33,749 nt of DNA from an uncultured Ectothiorhodospiraceae bacterium (GTDB lineage: Bacteria > Pseudomonadota > Gammaproteobacteria > XJ16 > Halofilaceae): positions 1 through 33,749 of the forward strand of contig CAJXKK010000028.1 of NCBI GenBank assembly GCA_913055615.1, read 5' to 3'. The position numbers were made by a program, and so were the translations under genes. Positions 24,204-33,749 of the stretch are shown here, in pieces; positions within the stretch are counted from its first letter, which is position 1; every line of letters starts with the position of its first letter. The notes beneath the pieces are model-generated. The model ran no database searches. It was not told the DNA's origin and saw only the letters and a program-made list of their open reading frames with translations.

Positions 24204-25145
24204 ATGAATCCATTCAGATTCTCCATGGCGCTTGCAGCCGCCATCACGATTTCGACCGTCACGGCGACCGCGACGGCGGCCGACGATACCCCCACGATCC
24301 GTTTCGGCACGCCGACCTGGCCGGGCGTGACAGTCAAGACAGAAATCGCCGCCCAGCTCATCGAAACGATGGGCTATGACGTCGAACAGACGAACGCCAG
24401 CCCGGCGTTCGCGTACAACGCGCTCAAGTCGGACGATCTCGATATCTTCTTCGGTGGCTGGATGCCCACACAGAAGGACATGGCGGACCCGTTGATCGAT
24501 GAAGGCTCGGTGAAGGTCATGGCCACCAACATCTCGGACGCGGTCATGGGTATCGCGGTGCCGGAGTACGTGCATGAAGCCGGGGTCGATACCGAGGCCG
24601 ATCTCGCCGAATTCCGCGACCGCTTCGATGGCAAGATCTATGGAATCGAAGCCGGCAGCGGCTTCAATGAGTCGATCAGCATGGCCATCAGCAACGATCG
24701 CCACGGCCTCGGCGACTGGGAAATGGTTCCCTCGAGCACCAGCGGCATGCTGAGCCAGGTCGGGCGTTCGATCGATCGGGATGAGTGGATCGTCTTCCTG
24801 GGCTGGGAGCCGCACTGGATGAACGTCGCTTATGATATCCACTATCTCGAAGCGGTCGGTGATCGCGAGATCGCGGATACGCGCAGCGATGTTCTCACCG
24901 TGGCGAATCCGCGGATGGTCGAGCAGGAGCGGCACATCGCCCGTTTCCTTGAGCAGTACACGGTAAGCAAGGATGATCAGTCGGAATGGGTCCTGGAATA
25001 CAGCTACAACGACCGGGCATCCGAAGAGGTCGCCGCCGAGTGGATCGGGGCGAACCTGAACACGGTCGCGAAATGGCTGGACGGCGTGGAAACCAGTGAT
25101 GGCGGATCCGCGATCGAGGCGGTCCGGGCGGCCTACGCCGACTGA
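24204..25145 (+). CDS. ChoX/CaiX-like betaine-type ABC substrate-binding protein
   Basis: This is a periplasmic binding protein of the OpuAC type for quaternary amines such as choline, glycine betaine or carnitine. The 313-residue precursor has a signal peptide (about 1-27, ending ATATAA). Aromatic-box candidates are Trp in FGTPTWPG, Trp in FFGGWMPTQKD and two Trp in FLGWEPHWMN; GKIYGIEAGSGFN and GMLSQVGRS match ChoX. No permease or ATPase gene is beside it; the next gene is aacS. Orphan binding proteins of this type (CaiX and BetX in Pseudomonas) use a shared transporter core, which I infer here. The ligand cannot be fixed from sequence alone. Confidence 0.88.
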   Translation: MNPFRFSMALAAAITISTVTATATAADDTPTIRFGTPTWPGVTVKTEIAAQLIETMGYDVEQTNASPAFAYNALKSDDLDIFFGGWMPTQKDMADPLIDEGSVKVMATNISDAVMGIAVPEYVHEAGVDTEADLAEFRDRFDGKIYGIEAGSGFNESISMAISNDRHGLGDWEMVPSSTSGMLSQVGRSIDRDEWIVFLGWEPHWMNVAYDIHYLEAVGDREIADTRSDVLTVANPRMVEQERHIARFLEQYTVSKDDQSEWVLEYSYNDRASEEVAAEWIGANLNTVAKWLDGVETSDGGSAIEAVRAAYAD

Positions 25146-25192
25146 AGCAGGGCCCGCCAGGGCCGTACAGACCCGGTGTCACGTCGCTACCG

Positions 25193-25213
25193 GCGGCGTG
25201 GCGCCGCGTTTTT
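25193..25213 (+). terminator. Intrinsic terminator after the binding-protein gene
   Basis: GCGGCG (25193-25198) and CGCCGC (25202-25207) form a 6-bp GC stem with a TGG loop, followed by G and five T residues (25209-25213). It ends the binding-protein message 48 nt after its stop and separates it from aacS. Confidence 0.75.
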
Positions 25214-25363
25214 GCCGGCTGCTTTTTCCGGAGATATTGTCGCCCCCGGTGACGCTATCTCCAGCAAAACCAGCCTGTATCGGTGTGGGGCATGAATGAT
25301 GCGCACAGCGCCCCAGGCGATCGCCAAGACAGGAGCACCCGGCGCCGGCAGACGGGGAATGCC

Positions 25364-27328
25364 ATGAGTGAAGCCAGCGAAGTCCTCCGCATACCGTCGA
25401 CGGCGGATGTGCACGACAGCCACATCGCCCGCTATATGCGTTGGCTCGCCGAGGCCGGTTACGGTCGCTTCGAAGACTACGCCTCACTGTATGAATGGTC
25501 CATCGCCGAGCCGGATCGATTCTGGGCCTCGGTATGGGACTGGACCGGTGTGATCGCGCACCGGGATGCGGAACGCGTACTCGCGGATCGCTCCATGCCC
25601 GGCGCGCGCTGGTTCCCCGGCGCACGCCTGAACTATGCGGAGAACCTGCTGCGCGAGGCGATCCACGGCGATCCCGGGCGTACCGCGGTGTATGCGGTGT
25701 CCGAGACCCGCGAGCCGCGCGCCGTAACCTATGGCGAGCTGCTCGCGGATGTCGCGGCGTTCCGCGCCTGGCTTCAGGCCCAGGGCGTCGGTCCGGGGGA
25801 TCGCGTCGCCGGGGTGGTCGCGCACGCGCCGGAGGCGATCGTGGCGATGCTCGCGACCACCGCGCTCGGCGCGATCTGGTCGTCAGCGTCACCGGATTTC
25901 GGTGTCAACGCGATCGTGGACCGCTTCGGGCAGATCGAGCCGAAGGTACTGGTCACGGTTAATGGCTATGGGTACAACGGCAAGATCCATAAGCGGGCCG
26001 AGGCCGTTGATGAACTGGCCGCGCGGCTACCGTCGCTGGCGCGCATCGTGGTCGTGCCCCAGCTGCCGCATGCGGCGATGCCCGCGACGAATCACGTAGC
26101 GTGGGATGCCGCACTGGGCGCGCACCGGGGCGCCGAGCCGGTATTCGAGCCGATGGCGTTCGACGATCCCGCGTTTATCCTGTATTCGTCGGGCACGACG
26201 GGGGTGCCGAAGTGCATCGTCCATGGTGGCGGCGGTACGCTGTTGCAGCATGCCAAGGAACTCATTATCCACGGTGATATCGGCCGCGATGATGTCTTTT
26301 TCTATTTCACGACCACCGGCTGGATGATGTGGAACTGGCAGGTCTCAGGGCTGATGACGGGGGCCGAACTGGTTGTGCTCGATGGTGCCCCGGCGTATCC
26401 GTCACTCGATGTCTGCTGGCGTCTCGCGGCCGAGCGTGGTGTCACCCATTTCGGCACCAGCGCGAAATTCATTGGTGCCTGCCGTAATCACGGGCTCTCG
26501 CCGGGGACGACCAACGACCTGTCGGCCCTGCGGGTCATCTTCTCGACCGGCTCACCGCTGCTGCCGGAGGATTTCGACTGGGTGCGTGGGCACGTCGGCA
26601 GCGACATCCTGCTGGCCTCGATCTCCGGCGGGACCGACATCGTCTCCTGCTTCGTGGGCGGATGTCCGCTCCTGCCGGTACGCCGGGGCGAGATCCAGTG
26701 CCGCATGCTGGGTATGGATGTGCAGGCGTGGAGTGATTCCGGTGAACCCTTGGTCGGCGAGAAGGGCGAACTCGTCTGCCGTCAGCCGGCACCGTCGATG
26801 CCGGTCATGTTCTGGAACGACCCGGACGGCGAGCGCTACCGGCGAGCCTACTTCGATACGTTCCCCGGCGTCTGGGCGCACGGCGATTTCATCACGGTCA
26901 CCGAAAGCGGCGGGGTGATCATCCATGGCCGCTCCGACGCCACCCTCAATCCGGGTGGTATCCGCATCGGTACCGCCGAGATCTACCGCCAGGTCGAGAC
27001 CATGGATGAAGTCGCCGACAGCATCGTCGCCGGCCAGGCATGGAACGACGACGAACGGGTTGTACTGCTGGTGGTGCTCAATCCCGGTTACGAACTGGAC
27101 CAGGATCTGCTCCAGCGTATGCGCGCACGTATCCGGGAAGGTGCGAGCCCGCGCCACGTCCCGGCCCGCATCGCCGCGGTGGACGAGGTGCCGTACACGC
27201 GCAGCGGCAAGAAAGTGGAACTGGCGGTATCGAGTGTCCTGCGCGGCGACACGGTCGGCAATCGCGATGCGCTCGCGAACCCCGAAAGTCTCGACCGCAT
27301 CGCCGGGATCAAGGAATTGTTCGAATAA
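25364..27328 (+). CDS. aacS: Acetoacetyl-CoA synthetase
   Basis: AacS activates acetoacetate with ATP and CoA to acetoacetyl-CoA, which a thiolase can split to two acetyl-CoA. The 654-residue ANL-superfamily enzyme has an N-terminal ACAS_N-like region (HIARYMRWL), GAIWSSASPDFG, the P-loop-like YSSGTTGVPK (near 270), FTTTGWMMWNW, HGRSDATLNPGGIRIGTAEIYR and the catalytic Lys region RSGKKVELAV (near 615). Length and the GWMMWNW segment separate it from acetyl-CoA synthetase. I chose the ATG at 25364, with GGGGA upstream; codons from 25283 are possible but unlike the family. Beside betaine/carnitine-type genes, it may recover acetoacetate from dehydrocarnitine cleavage. Confidence 0.93.
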   Translation: MSEASEVLRIPSTADVHDSHIARYMRWLAEAGYGRFEDYASLYEWSIAEPDRFWASVWDWTGVIAHRDAERVLADRSMPGARWFPGARLNYAENLLREAIHGDPGRTAVYAVSETREPRAVTYGELLADVAAFRAWLQAQGVGPGDRVAGVVAHAPEAIVAMLATTALGAIWSSASPDFGVNAIVDRFGQIEPKVLVTVNGYGYNGKIHKRAEAVDELAARLPSLARIVVVPQLPHAAMPATNHVAWDAALGAHRGAEPVFEPMAFDDPAFILYSSGTTGVPKCIVHGGGGTLLQHAKELIIHGDIGRDDVFFYFTTTGWMMWNWQVSGLMTGAELVVLDGAPAYPSLDVCWRLAAERGVTHFGTSAKFIGACRNHGLSPGTTNDLSALRVIFSTGSPLLPEDFDWVRGHVGSDILLASISGGTDIVSCFVGGCPLLPVRRGEIQCRMLGMDVQAWSDSGEPLVGEKGELVCRQPAPSMPVMFWNDPDGERYRRAYFDTFPGVWAHGDFITVTESGGVIIHGRSDATLNPGGIRIGTAEIYRQVETMDEVADSIVAGQAWNDDERVVLLVVLNPGYELDQDLLQRMRARIREGASPRHVPARIAAVDEVPYTRSGKKVELAVSSVLRGDTVGNRDALANPESLDRIAGIKELFE

Positions 27329-27469
27329 TTCGACCGCGATTACCGCAGGTCGGGCTTGCGGCCGCCCGCGAACCTCCCGCGTGAAAGCAAACGCAGGATT
27401 CCCGATAATCGATTTGCCCCGAACGCGTCGCAGCCGGAATCACACCCTTGGCCACGGAATCATGCCGCA

Positions 27470-28438
27470 ATGTCGGATAACACGATGGATACCGGGACCC
27501 GCGAGATCGGCTTTCTCCTGATCCCGGAATTCTCGATGATGGCCTTCTTTGCGGCGATCGAACCGTTGCGGATCGCCAACCGCTGCAGCGGCGAGACGCT
27601 GTACAGCTGGTCGATCTGGTCGCAAGACGGGAAGCCGGTCGCCGCCAGCAACGGTATGACCCTGCTGACGGACGGCGCGATCGGCGACCAGGTGGGGGCG
27701 CCTACGGTATTCGTCTGCAGTTCCTTCAACCACGAGAGCCATGCCTCGGCCGCGATCCTTCAATGGCTCAAGCGCCTGGCGGGGCAGGGCGTGGTGCTCG
27801 GCGGCATCGATACCGGGGCCTTCCTCCTCGCCCGGGCGGGCCTGCTGGAGGGCTACACGATCACCCTGCACTGGGAGAGTATTCCCGGCTTTCGCGAACT
27901 CTATCCCGGGATCGATACGACCACCGAGCTCTACGAGATCGACCGGCGTCGCCTGACTTCATCGGGCGGCACGGCCACGATGGATCTCATGCTGCGTTTC
28001 ATCGCCGAAGAGCACGGCACCGGGCTGGCGACCGCGGTATCCGAGCAGTTGATCCATCAGCGCGTGCGGAGCAAGAGTGATCACCAGCGCATGAACGTCG
28101 CCGCGCGCCTGGATGTGCACAATCCCACCCTGGTGCGCGCGGTGGAATTCATGGGGCGCAACATCGAGACGCCGGTAGCCGTCGGCGGTATCGCGGAGCA
28201 CTGCGACATCTCCCAGCGCCAGTTGGAACGCCTGTTCGCCGAGCAGCTCGGTGCCGGGCCCAACGCGTATTACGTCAGGTTGCGTCTCGAGCACGCACGG
28301 GAACTGCTGCACGATACCGACCGTAGCGTACTCGAGGTGGCGCTCGCCTGCGGCTTCGGCTCCTGCGCCAGCCTGTCGCGCGCCTACCGGCGTCACTATG
28401 GCATCCCGCCAAGCCGCGACCGGAAATGGACGGCCTGA
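27470..28438 (+). CDS. GlxA-family AraC-type regulator, GbdR/CdhR-like
   Basis: The 322-residue regulator has an N-terminal DJ-1/PfpI-like domain (IGFLLIPEFSMMAFFAAIEPLRIANR) and a C-terminal AraC helix-turn-helix pair (about 225-320: VAVGGIAEHCDISQRQLERLF and SVLEVALACGFGSCASLSRAYRRHYG). The nucleophile-elbow Cys of true DJ-1 enzymes is Asp here (GGIDTGAFLLA), as in regulators that use this domain only to sense ligands. GbdR (glycine betaine, dimethylglycine) and CdhR (carnitine) of Pseudomonas have this make-up, and the neighbours favour such a role. I chose Met at 27470; a longer frame from 27356 has a poorly conserved Pro/Arg-rich start. It is convergent with the acyl-CoA synthetase gene, 15 nt away, with no obvious terminator. 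Confidence 0.85.
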   Translation: MSDNTMDTGTREIGFLLIPEFSMMAFFAAIEPLRIANRCSGETLYSWSIWSQDGKPVAASNGMTLLTDGAIGDQVGAPTVFVCSSFNHESHASAAILQWLKRLAGQGVVLGGIDTGAFLLARAGLLEGYTITLHWESIPGFRELYPGIDTTTELYEIDRRRLTSSGGTATMDLMLRFIAEEHGTGLATAVSEQLIHQRVRSKSDHQRMNVAARLDVHNPTLVRAVEFMGRNIETPVAVGGIAEHCDISQRQLERLFAEQLGAGPNAYYVRLRLEHARELLHDTDRSVLEVALACGFGSCASLSRAYRRHYGIPPSRDRKWTA

Positions 28439-28453
28439 GGCGGTGCCGGGCGG

Positions 28454-30613
28454 TCAGACGGACCCGATATCGGGATCCAGGGTCTCGGCGCCAGTGGTGT
28501 CGACCAGTCGTACCAGAGCATCCGCCGCCACAGCCCCGAGTCCCCGTGGCCGCACCAGCAGCGGATTCACATCGAGCTCTGCGATCCGGTCCGCATGCGC
28601 CAGGGCAAAGCGACCGATCGCCGCGCAGGCCTCCACGGCCGCGTCCAGATCGCCACCGACGCGGCCACGGTAACCGGCCAGGATACGTCCCACCGACAGC
28701 GATTCGATGGCCCGACGGATGGCGTCATGGTCGGCGGGCAGGAGCAGGGTGCGGGTGTCGTGCACGAGCTCGGCGAGGATGCCGCCACTGCCGATGACCA
28801 GAACCGGCCCACAGGCCGGATCACGTACCACACCGACAATCAGTTCCGTGACCGCGTCGGGGACCACCTGTTCGACCAGCCATCGATCGTCGCCGTGTCC
28901 GACTTCGCGCAGGCGTGTGGCCATCGTATCCGCGGCCGCCAGGAGTTCGTCCGCATCCGCCAGACCAAGGGCCACGGCCCCGAGCTCGGTCTTGTGCCCG
29001 ATATCGCGGCCAATCGCCTTGAGAACGAGCGGGTATTCCAGGCTGGCCCCGGCGTCTGCCAGGCCCGCCCGGTCGGTCGTGGTTCCGGCGGGAATCGACA
29101 GACCGTACCCGGCAATCCGCTGTTTGCTCTCGGCTTCATCGAGCGCGTACGTAGCGCCCGGTAACGCGGCGAGGAATGGCCCCTCCCACGCCGGCTGCGC
29201 GAGGAGGGTAGCGCGCCGTTGCGTCCATTGTGCTGCATGTACCAACGCCCTGATGCCCTCGCTCAGACCCTGCAGCGGAGTTACGCCCGACGCAAGGCAG
29301 GCATCGCGTGCCGCGGCGGGCAAGGCCTCGGGCAGTGTCGACAGCACGGTGGCCGGCGCTCCTGTCCGCGCCTGCGCGCGAAGAAAACCGTCCAGCGCGC
29401 TGCGCCAGTTGTCGGGTCGCGCCCGCCCGGGTGGGGGAAAATCCAGCACCAGGATCGCGGCATCATAGTCGTCGGCGAGAGCGGCCTCGAAACCCGCGGC
29501 GGTGGCCTCGGTATCGCCCCAGGTCCGCGTGTTGTAATCGAGCGGATTGCCAACGCTCGCGGGCTGTATCCGGAACGCCTCGGCGATCCGCTGAATCGGT
29601 TTCGGTGGCGGACAGGCCAGACCCGCCGCACTCAGGCGGTCGCCCATAATGGCCGCTTCACCGCCCGAGCACGACAGCGACACGACCTCGTTGCCCTGCA
29701 GCGGTCCGGTTACACTGAACAGCTTCAGCGTCTCGATCAGTTCGGTGAGCGACTCCGCGCGCCGGATGCCGAGCCGGTCGAACAGGGCGTCGTAGACGCT
29801 GTCCGATCCGGTCAGCGCGGCGGTATGGCTCTGTGACGCGCGCGCGCCCTCGGCCGACGCACCGACCTTGATCGCCACAATGGGGATACCCGCCTCAAGT
29901 GCCCGCCGGGCGGCGCGCGCGAAATGGTCGACATCGCGCAGGCCTTCGACGAACAGCCCGATTGCGTGGATGCGCGGATCGTCCAGCAGGGCGTCGATGA
30001 AGTCCTCGATACCCAATTGCGCCTGGTTGCCCGTGCCGATCACGTAACCGAAAGGTGCAGACCGCTGCTGGAACGTGGCGCTGAGCGCCACGTTGCCGCT
30101 CTGGCTGATCAGCGCGAATCCGGACTCGGCCGGATCGCCACCGTGATCGTCCGGCCACAGCGCCACCCGATCGAGGCAGTTGATGATGCCGTGACAGTTG
30201 GGTCCGACGAGGGCTACGTCGCCAGCCGCCTCGACCAGACGCTGCTCGAGATCCGCGATGCCGTCCTCGGCGAAACCGGCTGCGAAGCAGATCCCGCCCC
30301 CGGCGCCGCGGGCATTCAGCGCCGCGAACACGTCGGGGCAGTGGCGGGCCGGGACCGCGACCACCGCGGCATCCGGGCCCTCGGGCAGGTCGGCGACCGA
30401 GGCATAGCAGGCCCGCCCCTCCATCGCCTCGCGCCTGGGATTCACCGGCCAGATGGCGCCAGTGAAACCGATATGATCGAGCTGGCGGATCGTCTCGACG
30501 GCAGCGGCGCCACCGATCACCGCGATCTGTCGGGGCCGCAGCATACGGCCCAGATTACGGCGTCGGAGTTCGGCGTGCTCACCCCCGCTTGCGTCAACCG
30601 CTTCCATCACCAT
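28454..30613 (-). CDS. ADP-forming acyl-CoA synthetase (acetate-CoA ligase family)
   Basis: This enzyme type forms an acyl-CoA from acid, CoA and ATP, releasing ADP and phosphate through a phosphohistidine. The 719-residue protein fuses the alpha part (CoA-binding domain about 25-155 with GPNCHG at 137-142, then the ligase domain with His263 in SQSHTAALTG) to a beta part with an ATP-grasp domain (about 490-719: YPLVLKAIGRDIGHKTELGAV and the C-terminal AELDVNPLLV). It is the last gene of a three-gene minus operon; its ATG follows the dehydrogenase TGA directly. With a CaiD-like hydratase in the operon, I infer activation of carnitine, crotonobetaine or gamma-butyrobetaine; pimeloyl-, acetyl- or other acids are possible. 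Confidence 0.9.
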   Translation of the reverse strand: MVMEAVDASGGEHAELRRRNLGRMLRPRQIAVIGGAAAVETIRQLDHIGFTGAIWPVNPRREAMEGRACYASVADLPEGPDAAVVAVPARHCPDVFAALNARGAGGGICFAAGFAEDGIADLEQRLVEAAGDVALVGPNCHGIINCLDRVALWPDDHGGDPAESGFALISQSGNVALSATFQQRSAPFGYVIGTGNQAQLGIEDFIDALLDDPRIHAIGLFVEGLRDVDHFARAARRALEAGIPIVAIKVGASAEGARASQSHTAALTGSDSVYDALFDRLGIRRAESLTELIETLKLFSVTGPLQGNEVVSLSCSGGEAAIMGDRLSAAGLACPPPKPIQRIAEAFRIQPASVGNPLDYNTRTWGDTEATAAGFEAALADDYDAAILVLDFPPPGRARPDNWRSALDGFLRAQARTGAPATVLSTLPEALPAAARDACLASGVTPLQGLSEGIRALVHAAQWTQRRATLLAQPAWEGPFLAALPGATYALDEAESKQRIAGYGLSIPAGTTTDRAGLADAGASLEYPLVLKAIGRDIGHKTELGAVALGLADADELLAAADTMATRLREVGHGDDRWLVEQVVPDAVTELIVGVVRDPACGPVLVIGSGGILAELVHDTRTLLLPADHDAIRRAIESLSVGRILAGYRGRVGGDLDAAVEACAAIGRFALAHADRIAELDVNPLLVRPRGLGAVAADALVRLVDTTGAETLDPDIGSV

Positions 30614-31777
30614 TCAGCCGCCGTACGGGCGCAGCAGATCGCGCGAGATGATGTGGCGCTGGATCTCGCTGGTGCCATCCCAGATGCGCTCGATGCGCGC
30701 GTCGCGCCAGAAGCGCTCAAGCGGCAGTTCGTCCATCAGGCCCATGCCGCCGAAAATCTGGATGCACTCATCGGTGACCCGCGCCAGCATCTCCGAGGCG
30801 TAGAGCTTCGCCTTGGCGGCATCGGAATCGGTCATGCGGTCCTGGTCATGCAGCCAGGCGGCGCGCAGGCAGAGCATCTCCGCGGCCTCGATTTCGGTCG
30901 CCATATCTGCCAGTTTGAAACCGATCCCCTGGAAACGCCCGATCGACTGGCCGAACTGCTTCCGCGATGCGGCCCATTCCACGGCCATTTCGTGCGCCCG
31001 GCGTGCGCGGCCGATACAGGTCGCGCCGACCGTCAGCCGGCTCGCCGAGAGCCACGTGCCGGCGAGATCGAAACCGCGGTGGACCTCCCCAAGGACCTGC
31101 GTGGCGGGGACGCGGCAGTTGTCGAACTCGAGAATCGAGTTGTGATAACCGTGGTGCGATACGGAGTTGTAGCCCGCACGGACCTGCATCCCGGGCGTGT
31201 CGTGGTCGACCAGGAACACCGTGATCTTTTTGCGCTTGCCGCGCCCCTGGACTTCCTCTTCACCGGTCGCCGCGAACAGGATCGTGAAGTCCGCCACGTC
31301 CGCGTGGCTGATGAAGTGCTTGGTCCCGTTGATCACCCAGTCATCGCCATCGGCCTCGGCCCGGGTCGCCATGCCGCGCAGATCCGATCCCGCGCCCGGC
31401 TCGGTCATCGCCAGACAGTCGATGCGCTCACCGCGGATCGCGGGATAGAGATAACGCTCGGCCTGCTCGTCATTGCACGCGCGCAGGATGTTGCTGGGGC
31501 GGTGCACCAGCATCTGAAGCGCGAATGAAGTACGCCCGAGTTCGCGCTCGACCATGGTCATGGTCAGTGCATCGAGGCCACCGCCGCCGAGTTCCTCCGG
31601 CATGTTCGCCGCATAGAAGCCATGCTCAATGGATTTGGCGCGGATCGCCTCGGCGACCTCCGCCGGGACTTCGCCGCGGCGCTCGACCTCGTTTTCATGC
31701 GGATAGCATTCTTCCTCGACGAAGCGGCGGACGCTGTCGACGATCATGTTCTGTTCGGTTGTGGATTCGAAGTCCAT
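30614..31777 (-). CDS. Acyl-CoA dehydrogenase (CaiA/gamma-butyrobetainyl-CoA candidate)
   Basis: This FAD enzyme would oxidise an acyl-CoA to a 2-enoyl-CoA, passing electrons to ETF. The 387-residue protein has the three domains in order: helical N-terminus, beta domain with MTEPGAGSDLRG and WVINGTKHFIS, and C-terminal helices with RKQFGQSIGRFQ, QIFGGMGLMDELPLERFWRDARIERI and DGTSEIQR. At the usual catalytic Glu position (E of YEGT in medium-chain enzymes) it has Asp367, and the alternative isovaleryl-type Glu is also absent. It lies between the CaiD-like gene (3 nt gap) and the acyl-CoA synthetase gene (0 nt gap). The substrate is inferred from the operon only. E. coli CaiA runs in the reductive direction and is not closely similar. 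Confidence 0.92.
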   Translation of the reverse strand: MDFESTTEQNMIVDSVRRFVEEECYPHENEVERRGEVPAEVAEAIRAKSIEHGFYAANMPEELGGGGLDALTMTMVERELGRTSFALQMLVHRPSNILRACNDEQAERYLYPAIRGERIDCLAMTEPGAGSDLRGMATRAEADGDDWVINGTKHFISHADVADFTILFAATGEEEVQGRGKRKKITVFLVDHDTPGMQVRAGYNSVSHHGYHNSILEFDNCRVPATQVLGEVHRGFDLAGTWLSASRLTVGATCIGRARRAHEMAVEWAASRKQFGQSIGRFQGIGFKLADMATEIEAAEMLCLRAAWLHDQDRMTDSDAAKAKLYASEMLARVTDECIQIFGGMGLMDELPLERFWRDARIERIWDGTSEIQRHIISRDLLRPYGG

Positions 31778-31780
31778 CGC

Positions 31781-32584
31781 TTATTTCCCCCGGAACTGTG
31801 CATGGCGTTTCTCGGCGAACGCGGCGACGCCTTCCTTCGCGTCCTCGCTCTGCAGAACCTTCGGGAAGTTCTCGAACTCCGCTTCGCGCATATACGAGAA
31901 CGTATCCTTGACCGACATCGATTCGGTCTCGCGCAGGATCTCCTTGATCGCCTGGACCGCGAGCGGCGCACCGGCGGCGATCGTGTCCGCCCATTCCCGC
32001 GCTGTCGGCATGAGCTCATCCGGAGAAACCACACGGTTGATCATGCCGTAATGCATCGCCTCTTCGACCTCCATGCGGCGGCCGAGCAACAGCATCTCCA
32101 TCGCGATGTTGTAGGGCAGGCGCTTGGGGACGCGCTGCAGACCGCCCGAATCCGGCACGATCCCCAGCGGGACTTCCGGCAGCGCGAAGTACGCGTGATC
32201 CGCGCAAACGATGAGATCGCAGGCGATCGCCAGCTCGAGGCCACCGCCGATCGCGAGGCCGTTGACTGCCGCGATGACGGGCTTGTTGAGGTCCCAGAGC
32301 TCGGTAATGCCGGCGAAGCTGCCGGGGCCGTAATCGGTGTGCCACCAGAGGCCGACCTCCTCGTCGTCGCCGGAGGCCGCGGCCTTGAGATCCCAGCCCG
32401 CGGAGAAGGCCTTGTCGCCCGCAGCGGTGACGATACCGACGCGCAACTCGGGATCATCCCGGAGTTCGCAGAAGGCGTTGCCCAGCGCGACCGAAGTGGC
32501 ACGGTCGATCGCGTTCACCTTCGGGCGGTTCAGCGTGATTTCCATTACGGCGCCACGGCGCTCGACTTGTACGGCGTCACTCAT
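31781..32584 (-). CDS. caiD: CaiD-like carnitinyl-CoA dehydratase (crotonase family)
   Basis: CaiD interconverts L-carnitinyl-CoA and crotonobetainyl-CoA. The 267-residue protein follows E. coli CaiD along most of its length: ITLNRPKVNAID, FSAGWDLKAAA (60-70), GPGSFAGITELWDLNKPVIA, GGGLELAIACDLIVCAD and LPEVPLGIVPDSGG, and ends SEDAKEGVAAFAEKR. Glu117 and Glu137 match the two catalytic Glu of CaiD (111 and 131 in E. coli), shifted by a short insertion near residue 75-85. A GGAGG ribosome-binding site precedes the ATG. It is the first gene of the operon. The similarity was judged by eye from memory of CaiD; a general enoyl-CoA hydratase is the alternative. Confidence 0.82.
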   Translation of the reverse strand: MSDAVQVERRGAVMEITLNRPKVNAIDRATSVALGNAFCELRDDPELRVGIVTAAGDKAFSAGWDLKAAASGDDEEVGLWWHTDYGPGSFAGITELWDLNKPVIAAVNGLAIGGGLELAIACDLIVCADHAYFALPEVPLGIVPDSGGLQRVPKRLPYNIAMEMLLLGRRMEVEEAMHYGMINRVVSPDELMPTAREWADTIAAGAPLAVQAIKEILRETESMSVKDTFSYMREAEFENFPKVLQSEDAKEGVAAFAEKRHAQFRGK

Positions 32585-32707
32585 TTGTTTCCTCCCGATG
32601 CATGGGGCAGGGGGTACCGGTCAGGATATGTCGTATGCCCGTTAACGCATTCTATCCTCGCGGAATCGCGTGGCGGCACGTTGATAAAAACCGCCATGAT
32701 TTTGCCT

Positions 32708-32719
32708 TTTGGCGCCAAA
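32708..32719. promoter_or_regulatory. 12-bp palindrome TTTGGCGCCAAA
   Basis: A perfect palindrome 124 nt before the CaiD-like start. It could be an operator of a regulator encoded elsewhere or a chance match; no family is assigned. Confidence 0.3.
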
Positions 32720-32783
32720 TCGCCTTCCTGAGGCGCACAGTTGTCCGGAATGGGATCGCGCTGATCTTGCTGTAGCGGCCAAG

Positions 32784-32803
32784 TTGATCGACTTGTCGAT
32801 CAA
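32784..32803. promoter_or_regulatory. Putative BetI-type operator
   Basis: TTGATCGA (32784-32791) and TCGATCAA (32796-32803) form a perfect 8-4-8 inverted repeat. Its size, spacing and TTGAT...ATCAA ends resemble sites of TetR/BetI-family repressors. It lies in the gap between the minus-strand operon and the betI-like remnant, the place expected for an operator controlling both. Confidence 0.5.
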
Positions 32804-32886
32804 TACTGGGCATGTTAAGTGTCAGATTCTTTTGGGCAGGCGAGAAAATCTATCAATTATCAGCCATAGTCCCGCGGGAGGCGAGG

Positions 32887-33464
32887 GTGGCAAATGCCGA
32901 ACCAGCGGTCTCCACCGACCGCAGAGACCTCCCTCGGAAACAACGGATCGAGGCAACGATCAGCGTAGGTGAACTACGGGGTCGTTGGTTTCTGGTTCCG
33001 AACCAGGCAGGATCTGCTGCTGGCGAGACTCCAGTGGCTCGCGGCTGAGTACACCAGCGAGTGGCGTGGCGCGGCCGAAAAGGCTGGACCCTCGCCGGTG
33101 TCGCGTCTTCAGGCGATCGTTGACACCGACCTCTCGCCACGCGATCGCCCGCGAAAAGAATATCGGGGTCTGGTATGCGTGCCGGGCGGAAGGCCGTACA
33201 CACCCGAGGTACCGTCACCTGTGCGCCCAGTTGTACAACGATTGCCACTGGCAGGTACGCACGATGATCGAGGAGGTCATCAAGCAAGTTGGCCACGAGG
33301 ATGTCGACGCGCGCCAAGTGACGGTCGCGCTCACTGCGATGACCGACGGGATGTGGCTTGATCTCCAGATCCAGCCGCGCGACTTCGCTCGCGAGGAGGC
33401 GAGGAAGCCGATCGAAATGTTTCTCGGCAAGGTTTCGCCGGTCGGGTTCGGTGGTCGAAAATGA
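32887..33464 (+). pseudogene. Broken betI-like TetR-family repressor gene
   Basis: Three reading frames together spell one BetI-like protein. Frame 1 from a GTG at 32887 (GGGAGG before it) gives the N-terminus with RRDLPRKQRIEATIS, the usual first helix. About 23 residues of the helix-turn-helix are then missing, and the sequence resumes in another frame near 32967 with YGVVGFWFRTRQDLLL and AEYTSEWRGAAEKAG. A second frame change near 33131-33145 leads to REKNIGVWYACRAEGRTHPR and the C-terminal half with ALTAMTDGMWLD, ending at TGA 33462-33464. No intact DNA-binding domain can be made. Sequencing error could explain the second change but hardly the roughly 70-nt loss. It lies 75 nt before the aldehyde dehydrogenase gene. 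Confidence 0.75.
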
Positions 33465-33539
33465 TGCACCTTTCGCCGGGCGCGTCCTGCCCGGCCAATC
33501 GCGGGGAAACAATTTTCAGAACTGTCTACGGAGATCCGA

Positions 33540-33749
33540 ATGAAGCTGAAAGACGCACGCTCTCTGAGCGCAAAAGACTGGCACGCCCGCGCTGAGGCGC
33601 TGAGCCCCGAAGGCCGGCATTTCATCGATGGCGCGTTCGTGGATTCGGCCGACGGCGCGACCTTCGATGACGTCAATCCGGCGACGGGGGCGCTCGTCGC
33701 CCGTGTCGCGCGCGGCGGTCAGGCCGAAATCGATCGTGCCGTCGCCTCA
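33540..33749 (+). CDS. Aldehyde dehydrogenase, 5' part only
   Basis: The first 70 codons of an NAD(P)-dependent aldehyde dehydrogenase run off the right edge. The ATG at 33540 has GGAG 6 nt upstream. The visible part has AKDWHARAEAL, FIDGAFVDSADGATFDDVNPATG and RGGQAEIDRAV, the N-terminal oligomerisation strands of the PuuC/BetB-like group; the opening resembles PuuC-type enzymes more than BetB. In this setting, betaine aldehyde or 4-trimethylaminobutyraldehyde would be natural substrates, but the catalytic Cys and substrate-binding residues are outside the window. Confidence 0.85.
   Translation, partial: MKLKDARSLSAKDWHARAEALSPEGRHFIDGAFVDSADGATFDDVNPATGALVARVARGGQAEIDRAVAS

Follow-up and report, generated by a model that had tools for sequence, protein, structure and literature searches.

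A probable operon for the upper half of aerobic gamma-butyrobetaine and L-carnitine catabolism in an uncultured Ectothiorhodospiraceae bacterium

The genes that lead from gamma-butyrobetaine (GBB) to carnitine in S. meliloti reportedly (work of Bazire, 2019) encode an acyl-CoA dehydrogenase, an NDP-forming GBB:CoA ligase, and a CaiD-like hydratase, and this trio is said to be linked to a carnitine dehydrogenase and a BKACE. The BcoAB protein of S. meliloti has served as a GBB:CoA ligase, producing GBB-CoA out of GBB, ATP, and CoA (PMC8364193). P. aeruginosa combines CaiX, CdhR, and cdh genes; its CaiX is an orphan binding protein that relies on a shared permease and is under the control of CdhR (PMC5806209).

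The locus described here lies at one end of the 33,749-nucleotide stretch of DNA that we analyzed (the window), which is the entire contig C28, one of the 87 contigs of a 3.0-Mb genome (G000). All eight genes named in a preliminary description were found, with the gene order and orientations that it had implied (Table 1). Within the minus-strand trio, the hydratase and dehydrogenase genes are separated by 3 bp and the dehydrogenase and ligase genes by 0 bp, which is consistent with a single operon. The segment that runs from the binding-protein gene through the hydratase gene recurs in a sister species of the same genus (G002) at 82–84% DNA identity, the encoded proteins being 86–98% identical to those of the window. 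Between operon and TetR gene, G002 possesses ∼6 kb that are missing in the window (L048:16961-19517 and L074:1412-4587) and that encode an MFS transporter, a GcvT-like protein, and two FAD oxidoreductases.

Table 1. Features of the locus (positions in the window)
Feature	Position	Strand	Basis
OpuAC protein; ChoX/CaiX-like orphan periplasmic binding protein, putatively for quaternary amines	24204-25145	+	Pfam, NCBIfam, alignment with structural relative
AacS, acetoacetyl-CoA synthetase	25364-27328	+	TIGR01217; start at 25364 most likely
GATase1/AraC regulator of the GbdR/CdhR kind	27470-28438	+	HTH_18 and DJ-1/PfpI; start at 27470 most likely
Fused NDP-forming acyl-CoA ligase, putative GBB:CoA ligase (BcoAB-like)	28454-30613	-	CoA_binding, Succ_CoA_lig, ATP-grasp
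Acyl-CoA dehydrogenase, putative gamma-butyrobetainyl-CoA dehydrogenase (BcoC-like)	30614-31777	-	Pfam Acyl-CoA_dh domains
CaiD-like hydratase, putative crotonobetainyl-CoA hydratase (BcoD-like)	31781-32584	-	NCBIfam, identity, tree
Intergenic region between the operon and the TetR pseudogene, presumed to contain the operon promoter	32585-32886	.	Position only
Pseudogene of a BetI-type TetR regulator	32887-33464	+	TetR_C_6; comparison with G002
Aldehyde dehydrogenase, 5' end, first 70 codons (PuuC/KauB/betaine-aldehyde group)	33540-33749	+	DNA identity to the G002 gene

The locus very probably represents the upper half of an aerobic system for GBB and L-carnitine catabolism, with GBB as the presumed betaine substrate. 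The ligase would convert GBB to gamma-butyrobetainyl-CoA at the expense of ATP, the flavin-dependent dehydrogenase would oxidize this thioester to crotonobetainyl-CoA, and the CaiD-like hydratase would yield L-carnitinyl-CoA. This sequence of CoA activation, oxidation, and hydration had been proposed in the preliminary description; with these presumed substrates, it is supported here and is the known route of S. meliloti. L-Carnitine would presumably be freed from CoA before entering a lower module, which is encoded elsewhere in the genome.

To compare the locus with other genomes, we used an alignment-based scan for the ligase in named genomes, which returned 80 loci, and added four plasmid loci (84 in total). 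A query of genome contigs with a single ligase sequence gave no match, in contrast to the alignment query. Because the loci were chosen by ligase similarity, neighbor counts apply to this set, and the case rests on contiguity and on annotated operons. Dehydrogenase, ligase, and CaiD genes are contiguous in 51 of the 84 loci, and the 46 full-length loci include a CaiD gene in 43 cases, an acyl-CoA dehydrogenase in 40, a carnitine dehydrogenase (CdhA) in 30, and a BKACE in 31. Of the 40 loci with both BKACE and carnitine dehydrogenase genes, 31 have the two side by side on one strand. In annotated loci, a single gene run encodes the acyl-CoA dehydrogenase, the ligase, a carnitinyl-CoA dehydratase, BKACE (as 3-keto-5-aminohexanoate cleavage protein), and carnitine 3-dehydrogenase. 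Since this gene grouping is found again in Alpha-, Beta-, and Gammaproteobacteria as well as in a few Actinomycetota, the gene association is far beyond chance. An Aminobacter locus unites BKACE, CdhA, and ligase genes with AacS and an aldehyde dehydrogenase, the latter two as in the window, and also contains an ABC transporter including an extracellular solute-binding protein.

The best NCBIfam model for the hydratase is CaiD (362.5 bits; next family, 256.8 bits), although the score stays below the equivalog cut-off of 500. Its identity to E. coli CaiD amounts to 57%, compared with 29–35% to PaaF, PaaG, and a paralogue from the same genome, and the protein retains both catalytic glutamates (Glu-117 and Glu-137), which we take to be equivalent to Glu-111 and Glu-131 of E. 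coli CaiD. In a phylogenetic tree, it is placed inside a 78-row CaiD group (SH-aLRT 98) that is separate from general enoyl-CoA hydratases. The CaiD-like identity proposed earlier was thus tested against a clustering with general enoyl-CoA hydratases, which was seen neither in the tree nor in the pairwise identities. Within the CaiD group, the hydratase branches near the base, beside and not within the E. coli CaiD subgroup, at a fork that is open. It features a 6-residue Trp-rich insert that is not found in E. coli CaiD and is common to a neighboring subgroup of the tree (Aminobacter, Shimia, Roseovarius, and others). Judged from its sequence, the protein may be labeled CaiD-like, but not a strict CaiD equivalog.

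All three Pfam domains of the ligase are combined within one protein, which contains the motifs SHTA (from residue 262) and HKTE (from residue 540) and shares ∼42–47% identity with ligases of annotated carnitine operons. As the direct stand-in for S. meliloti, we compared the operon on a plasmid of Sinorhizobium sp. B11. The acyl-CoA dehydrogenase gene immediately precedes the ligase gene in 66 of the 84 loci. Its product is only 29% identical to E. coli CaiA and possesses an aspartate (Asp-367, within IWDGTSEIQR) at the position of the usual catalytic glutamate. Among 80 aligned dehydrogenase homologues, 63 carry Asp and 16 carry Glu at this position, which is occupied by Gly in E. coli CaiA. 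This replacement of the catalytic glutamate in most of these dehydrogenases is a testable oddity.

The preliminary description had named a carnitine dehydrogenase and a dehydrocarnitine-cleaving enzyme as genes to look for, and both were found in the genome. Contig C2 carries genes for BKACE, L-carnitine dehydrogenase, a thioesterase, and a thiolase together. The L-carnitine dehydrogenase passes the equivalog cut-off of NF005471 (442.8 bits versus 414), and the product of the next gene corresponds to the thioesterase portion of the model for fused carnitine 3-dehydrogenases. In G002, this carnitine module is encoded on the same contig as the operon, at 126.7–129.1 kb versus 96.5–104.8 kb, about 23 kb beyond it. 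The L-carnitine dehydrogenase would oxidize L-carnitine to 3-dehydrocarnitine, BKACE would use acetyl-CoA to cleave the latter into betainyl-CoA and acetoacetate, and the thioesterase would release glycine betaine from betainyl-CoA. A search of the genome for the glycine-betaine demethylase GbcA returned only weak Rieske relatives below the cut-off, and the oxygenase genes related to GBB dioxygenase that occur elsewhere in G000 all score below the GBB dioxygenase cut-off. In genome G001, a GBB-dioxygenase-like gene is located beside a ligase/CaiD cluster (L050:10590-11705), and a second one lies near an aldehyde dehydrogenase gene related to that of the window, with a LysR-type gene between them (L206:2537-6294).

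The AacS of the window scores 868.7 bits against TIGR01217, well above the equivalog cut-off of 520.9 bits, and the Aminobacter carnitine locus likewise contains an AacS. Enzymes of the BKACE family release acetoacetate. AacS is therefore better explained by acetoacetate recovery than by a role in GBB activation, and we infer that it recovers the acetoacetate set free when BKACE cleaves 3-dehydrocarnitine. Together with the thiolase, it would return this acetoacetate to acetyl-CoA.

The binding protein matches Pfam OpuAC with 167 bits, and its score of 265.5 bits for the choline-binding subfamily TIGR03414 misses the cut-off of 379. Its best solved relative is ChoX of S. meliloti. In the alignment of both proteins, the tryptophans of the ChoX motifs WTD, NWMP, and GWEPH are retained, whereas the aspartate of WTD and Asn-129 (chain numbering) are replaced by Gly and Ser-152. 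The predicted pocket thus departs from that of the choline-specific ChoX. The gene has no adjoining permease gene, and a ChoW-like permease is encoded on contig C49; the orphan ChoX/CaiX-like protein would supply a shared permease.

The best NCBIfam model for the regulator, which consists of HTH_18 and DJ-1/PfpI domains, is the GbdR equivalog NF052371, at 339.2 bits and below the cut-off of 480. A role like that of CdhR would be compatible with this score, and a CdhR-like regulator gene is found beside 26 of the 46 full-length homologous operons. The P. aeruginosa CdhR site GGTCGC-N15-GGTCGC, searched throughout the window with up to three mismatches, gave 198 matches versus 143 expected, scattered over its whole length and none of them exact, and thus points to no particular regulator site. 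The regulator would act as a CdhR-like activator that turns the genes on, presumably in response to a ligand.

The betI-like remnant reported in the preliminary description is indeed a pseudogene. TetR_C_6 matches 32985-33464 with 59 bits, but compared with the intact G002 gene, the remnant has a 52-nucleotide deletion over the helix-turn-helix and a 1-nucleotide insertion, and its reading frame ends after 53 codons. In G002, the intact TetR gene is followed by a complete aldehyde dehydrogenase gene, for which PuuC is the best NCBIfam model (below cut-off) and to which the window gene shows 83% DNA identity. The end of the window is the end of contig C28, so that the aldehyde dehydrogenase gene runs off the contig. 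A second 5' end, 96% identical, is found at the start of contig C15 (C15:1-210), and 3' ends of aldehyde dehydrogenase genes are located at the end of contig C2 and at the start of contig C8. Similarity between the two copies extends from the start codon to near the stop codon, and the middle is absent from the assembly. The two 5' ends and the two 3' ends suggest that the G000 assembly was probably interrupted by a pair of near-identical aldehyde dehydrogenase genes. The gene order of G002 favors, and does not prove, a join of C28 and C2. Plausibly, the aldehyde dehydrogenase would convert trimethylaminobutyraldehyde to GBB, and its link to the operon hinges on how the contig end is joined. 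Judged by eye from the translations, the region beyond the 3' end on contig C8 (L087:1-4795) encodes a product like zinc alcohol dehydrogenases, a BetI-like TetR protein, an amidase-like product, and a further OpuAC-like binding protein.

Several observations count against the GBB/L-carnitine reading: scores for the CaiD, GbdR, and ChoX models stay under the respective equivalog or subfamily cut-offs, the hydratase branches outside the E. coli CaiD subgroup, the pocket of the binding protein departs from that of ChoX, and the lower module is encoded on another contig, the join to which is drawn from the sister genome. The enzymes might instead have a related betaine or cationic acid as their main substrate, such as a GBB homologue or a polyamine-derived acid, with GBB as a minor substrate. 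This would agree with a binding protein that is no strict ChoX and with the Trp-rich insert of the hydratase, which is common to a subgroup that includes the Aminobacter locus with its ABC transporter and solute-binding protein, AacS, and aldehyde dehydrogenase. However, an L-carnitine dehydrogenase above cut-off and a BKACE are encoded in the genome, and such genes are present in most homologous loci; the Trp-insert subgroup, too, is accompanied by CdhA-like and BKACE genes. We consider a main substrate other than GBB unlikely on these grounds. A variant operon adapted to a non-GBB betaine, with an Asp-base dehydrogenase and a Trp-loop hydratase and belonging to a subgroup in which cleavage is directly linked with AacS, likewise appears rather improbable.

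Acyl-CoA dehydrogenases, enoyl-CoA hydratases, and CoA ligases are common folds, and the genes could be parts of general fatty-acid or amino-acid β-oxidation that came together by accident. The identities of the hydratase to E. coli CaiD on the one hand and to PaaF, PaaG, and the paralogue on the other, and the conserved contiguous trio next to carnitine genes in diverse taxa, make this very improbable, and we rejected it. A reductive operon that uses carnitine as electron acceptor, like the cai system of E. coli, would be in line with a CaiD-like hydratase and with the reversible chemistry of CaiD and CaiA. Yet 24204-33749 contains no CaiB or CaiC gene, the dehydrogenase has little identity to CaiA, an NDP-forming ligase takes the place of CaiC, and the genome encodes the oxidative enzymes CdhA and BKACE; reductive operation is hardly credible.

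The pathway for GBB and L-carnitine catabolism that we favor for this locus is already known, and what is new here is a somewhat different gene neighborhood. Many Proteobacteria and a few Actinomycetota share the aerobic S. meliloti route from GBB to glycine betaine, in most cases with genes for carnitine dehydrogenase and BKACE alongside, and a step for acetoacetate recovery is suggested. The GBB dioxygenase route shares the start and end compounds, but it proceeds by hydroxylation with an oxygenase in one step. With caiTABCDE of E. coli, the locus has in common CaiD and identical CoA-thioester intermediates; in contrast, the window block lacks CaiT, CaiB, and CaiC and would operate oxidatively rather than in an anaerobic reductive direction. 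Similar to caiX-cdhCAB-hocS and cdhR of P. aeruginosa, the window encodes an orphan CaiX-type binding protein and a GATase1-AraC regulator, and carnitine dehydrogenase, BKACE, and a thioesterase are present in the genome. Different from P. aeruginosa, the trio from GBB to carnitine is located beside the regulator gene as an addition, and the cdh genes of G000 are located away from the binding protein. The bco genes of S. meliloti resemble the window in the grouping of dehydrogenase, ligase, and hydratase, the rhizobial ligases being about 43% identical to that of the window, whereas in G000, carnitine dehydrogenase and thioesterase are two genes that lie with BKACE on another contig, and AacS and a ChoX-like binding protein are encoded beside the operon.
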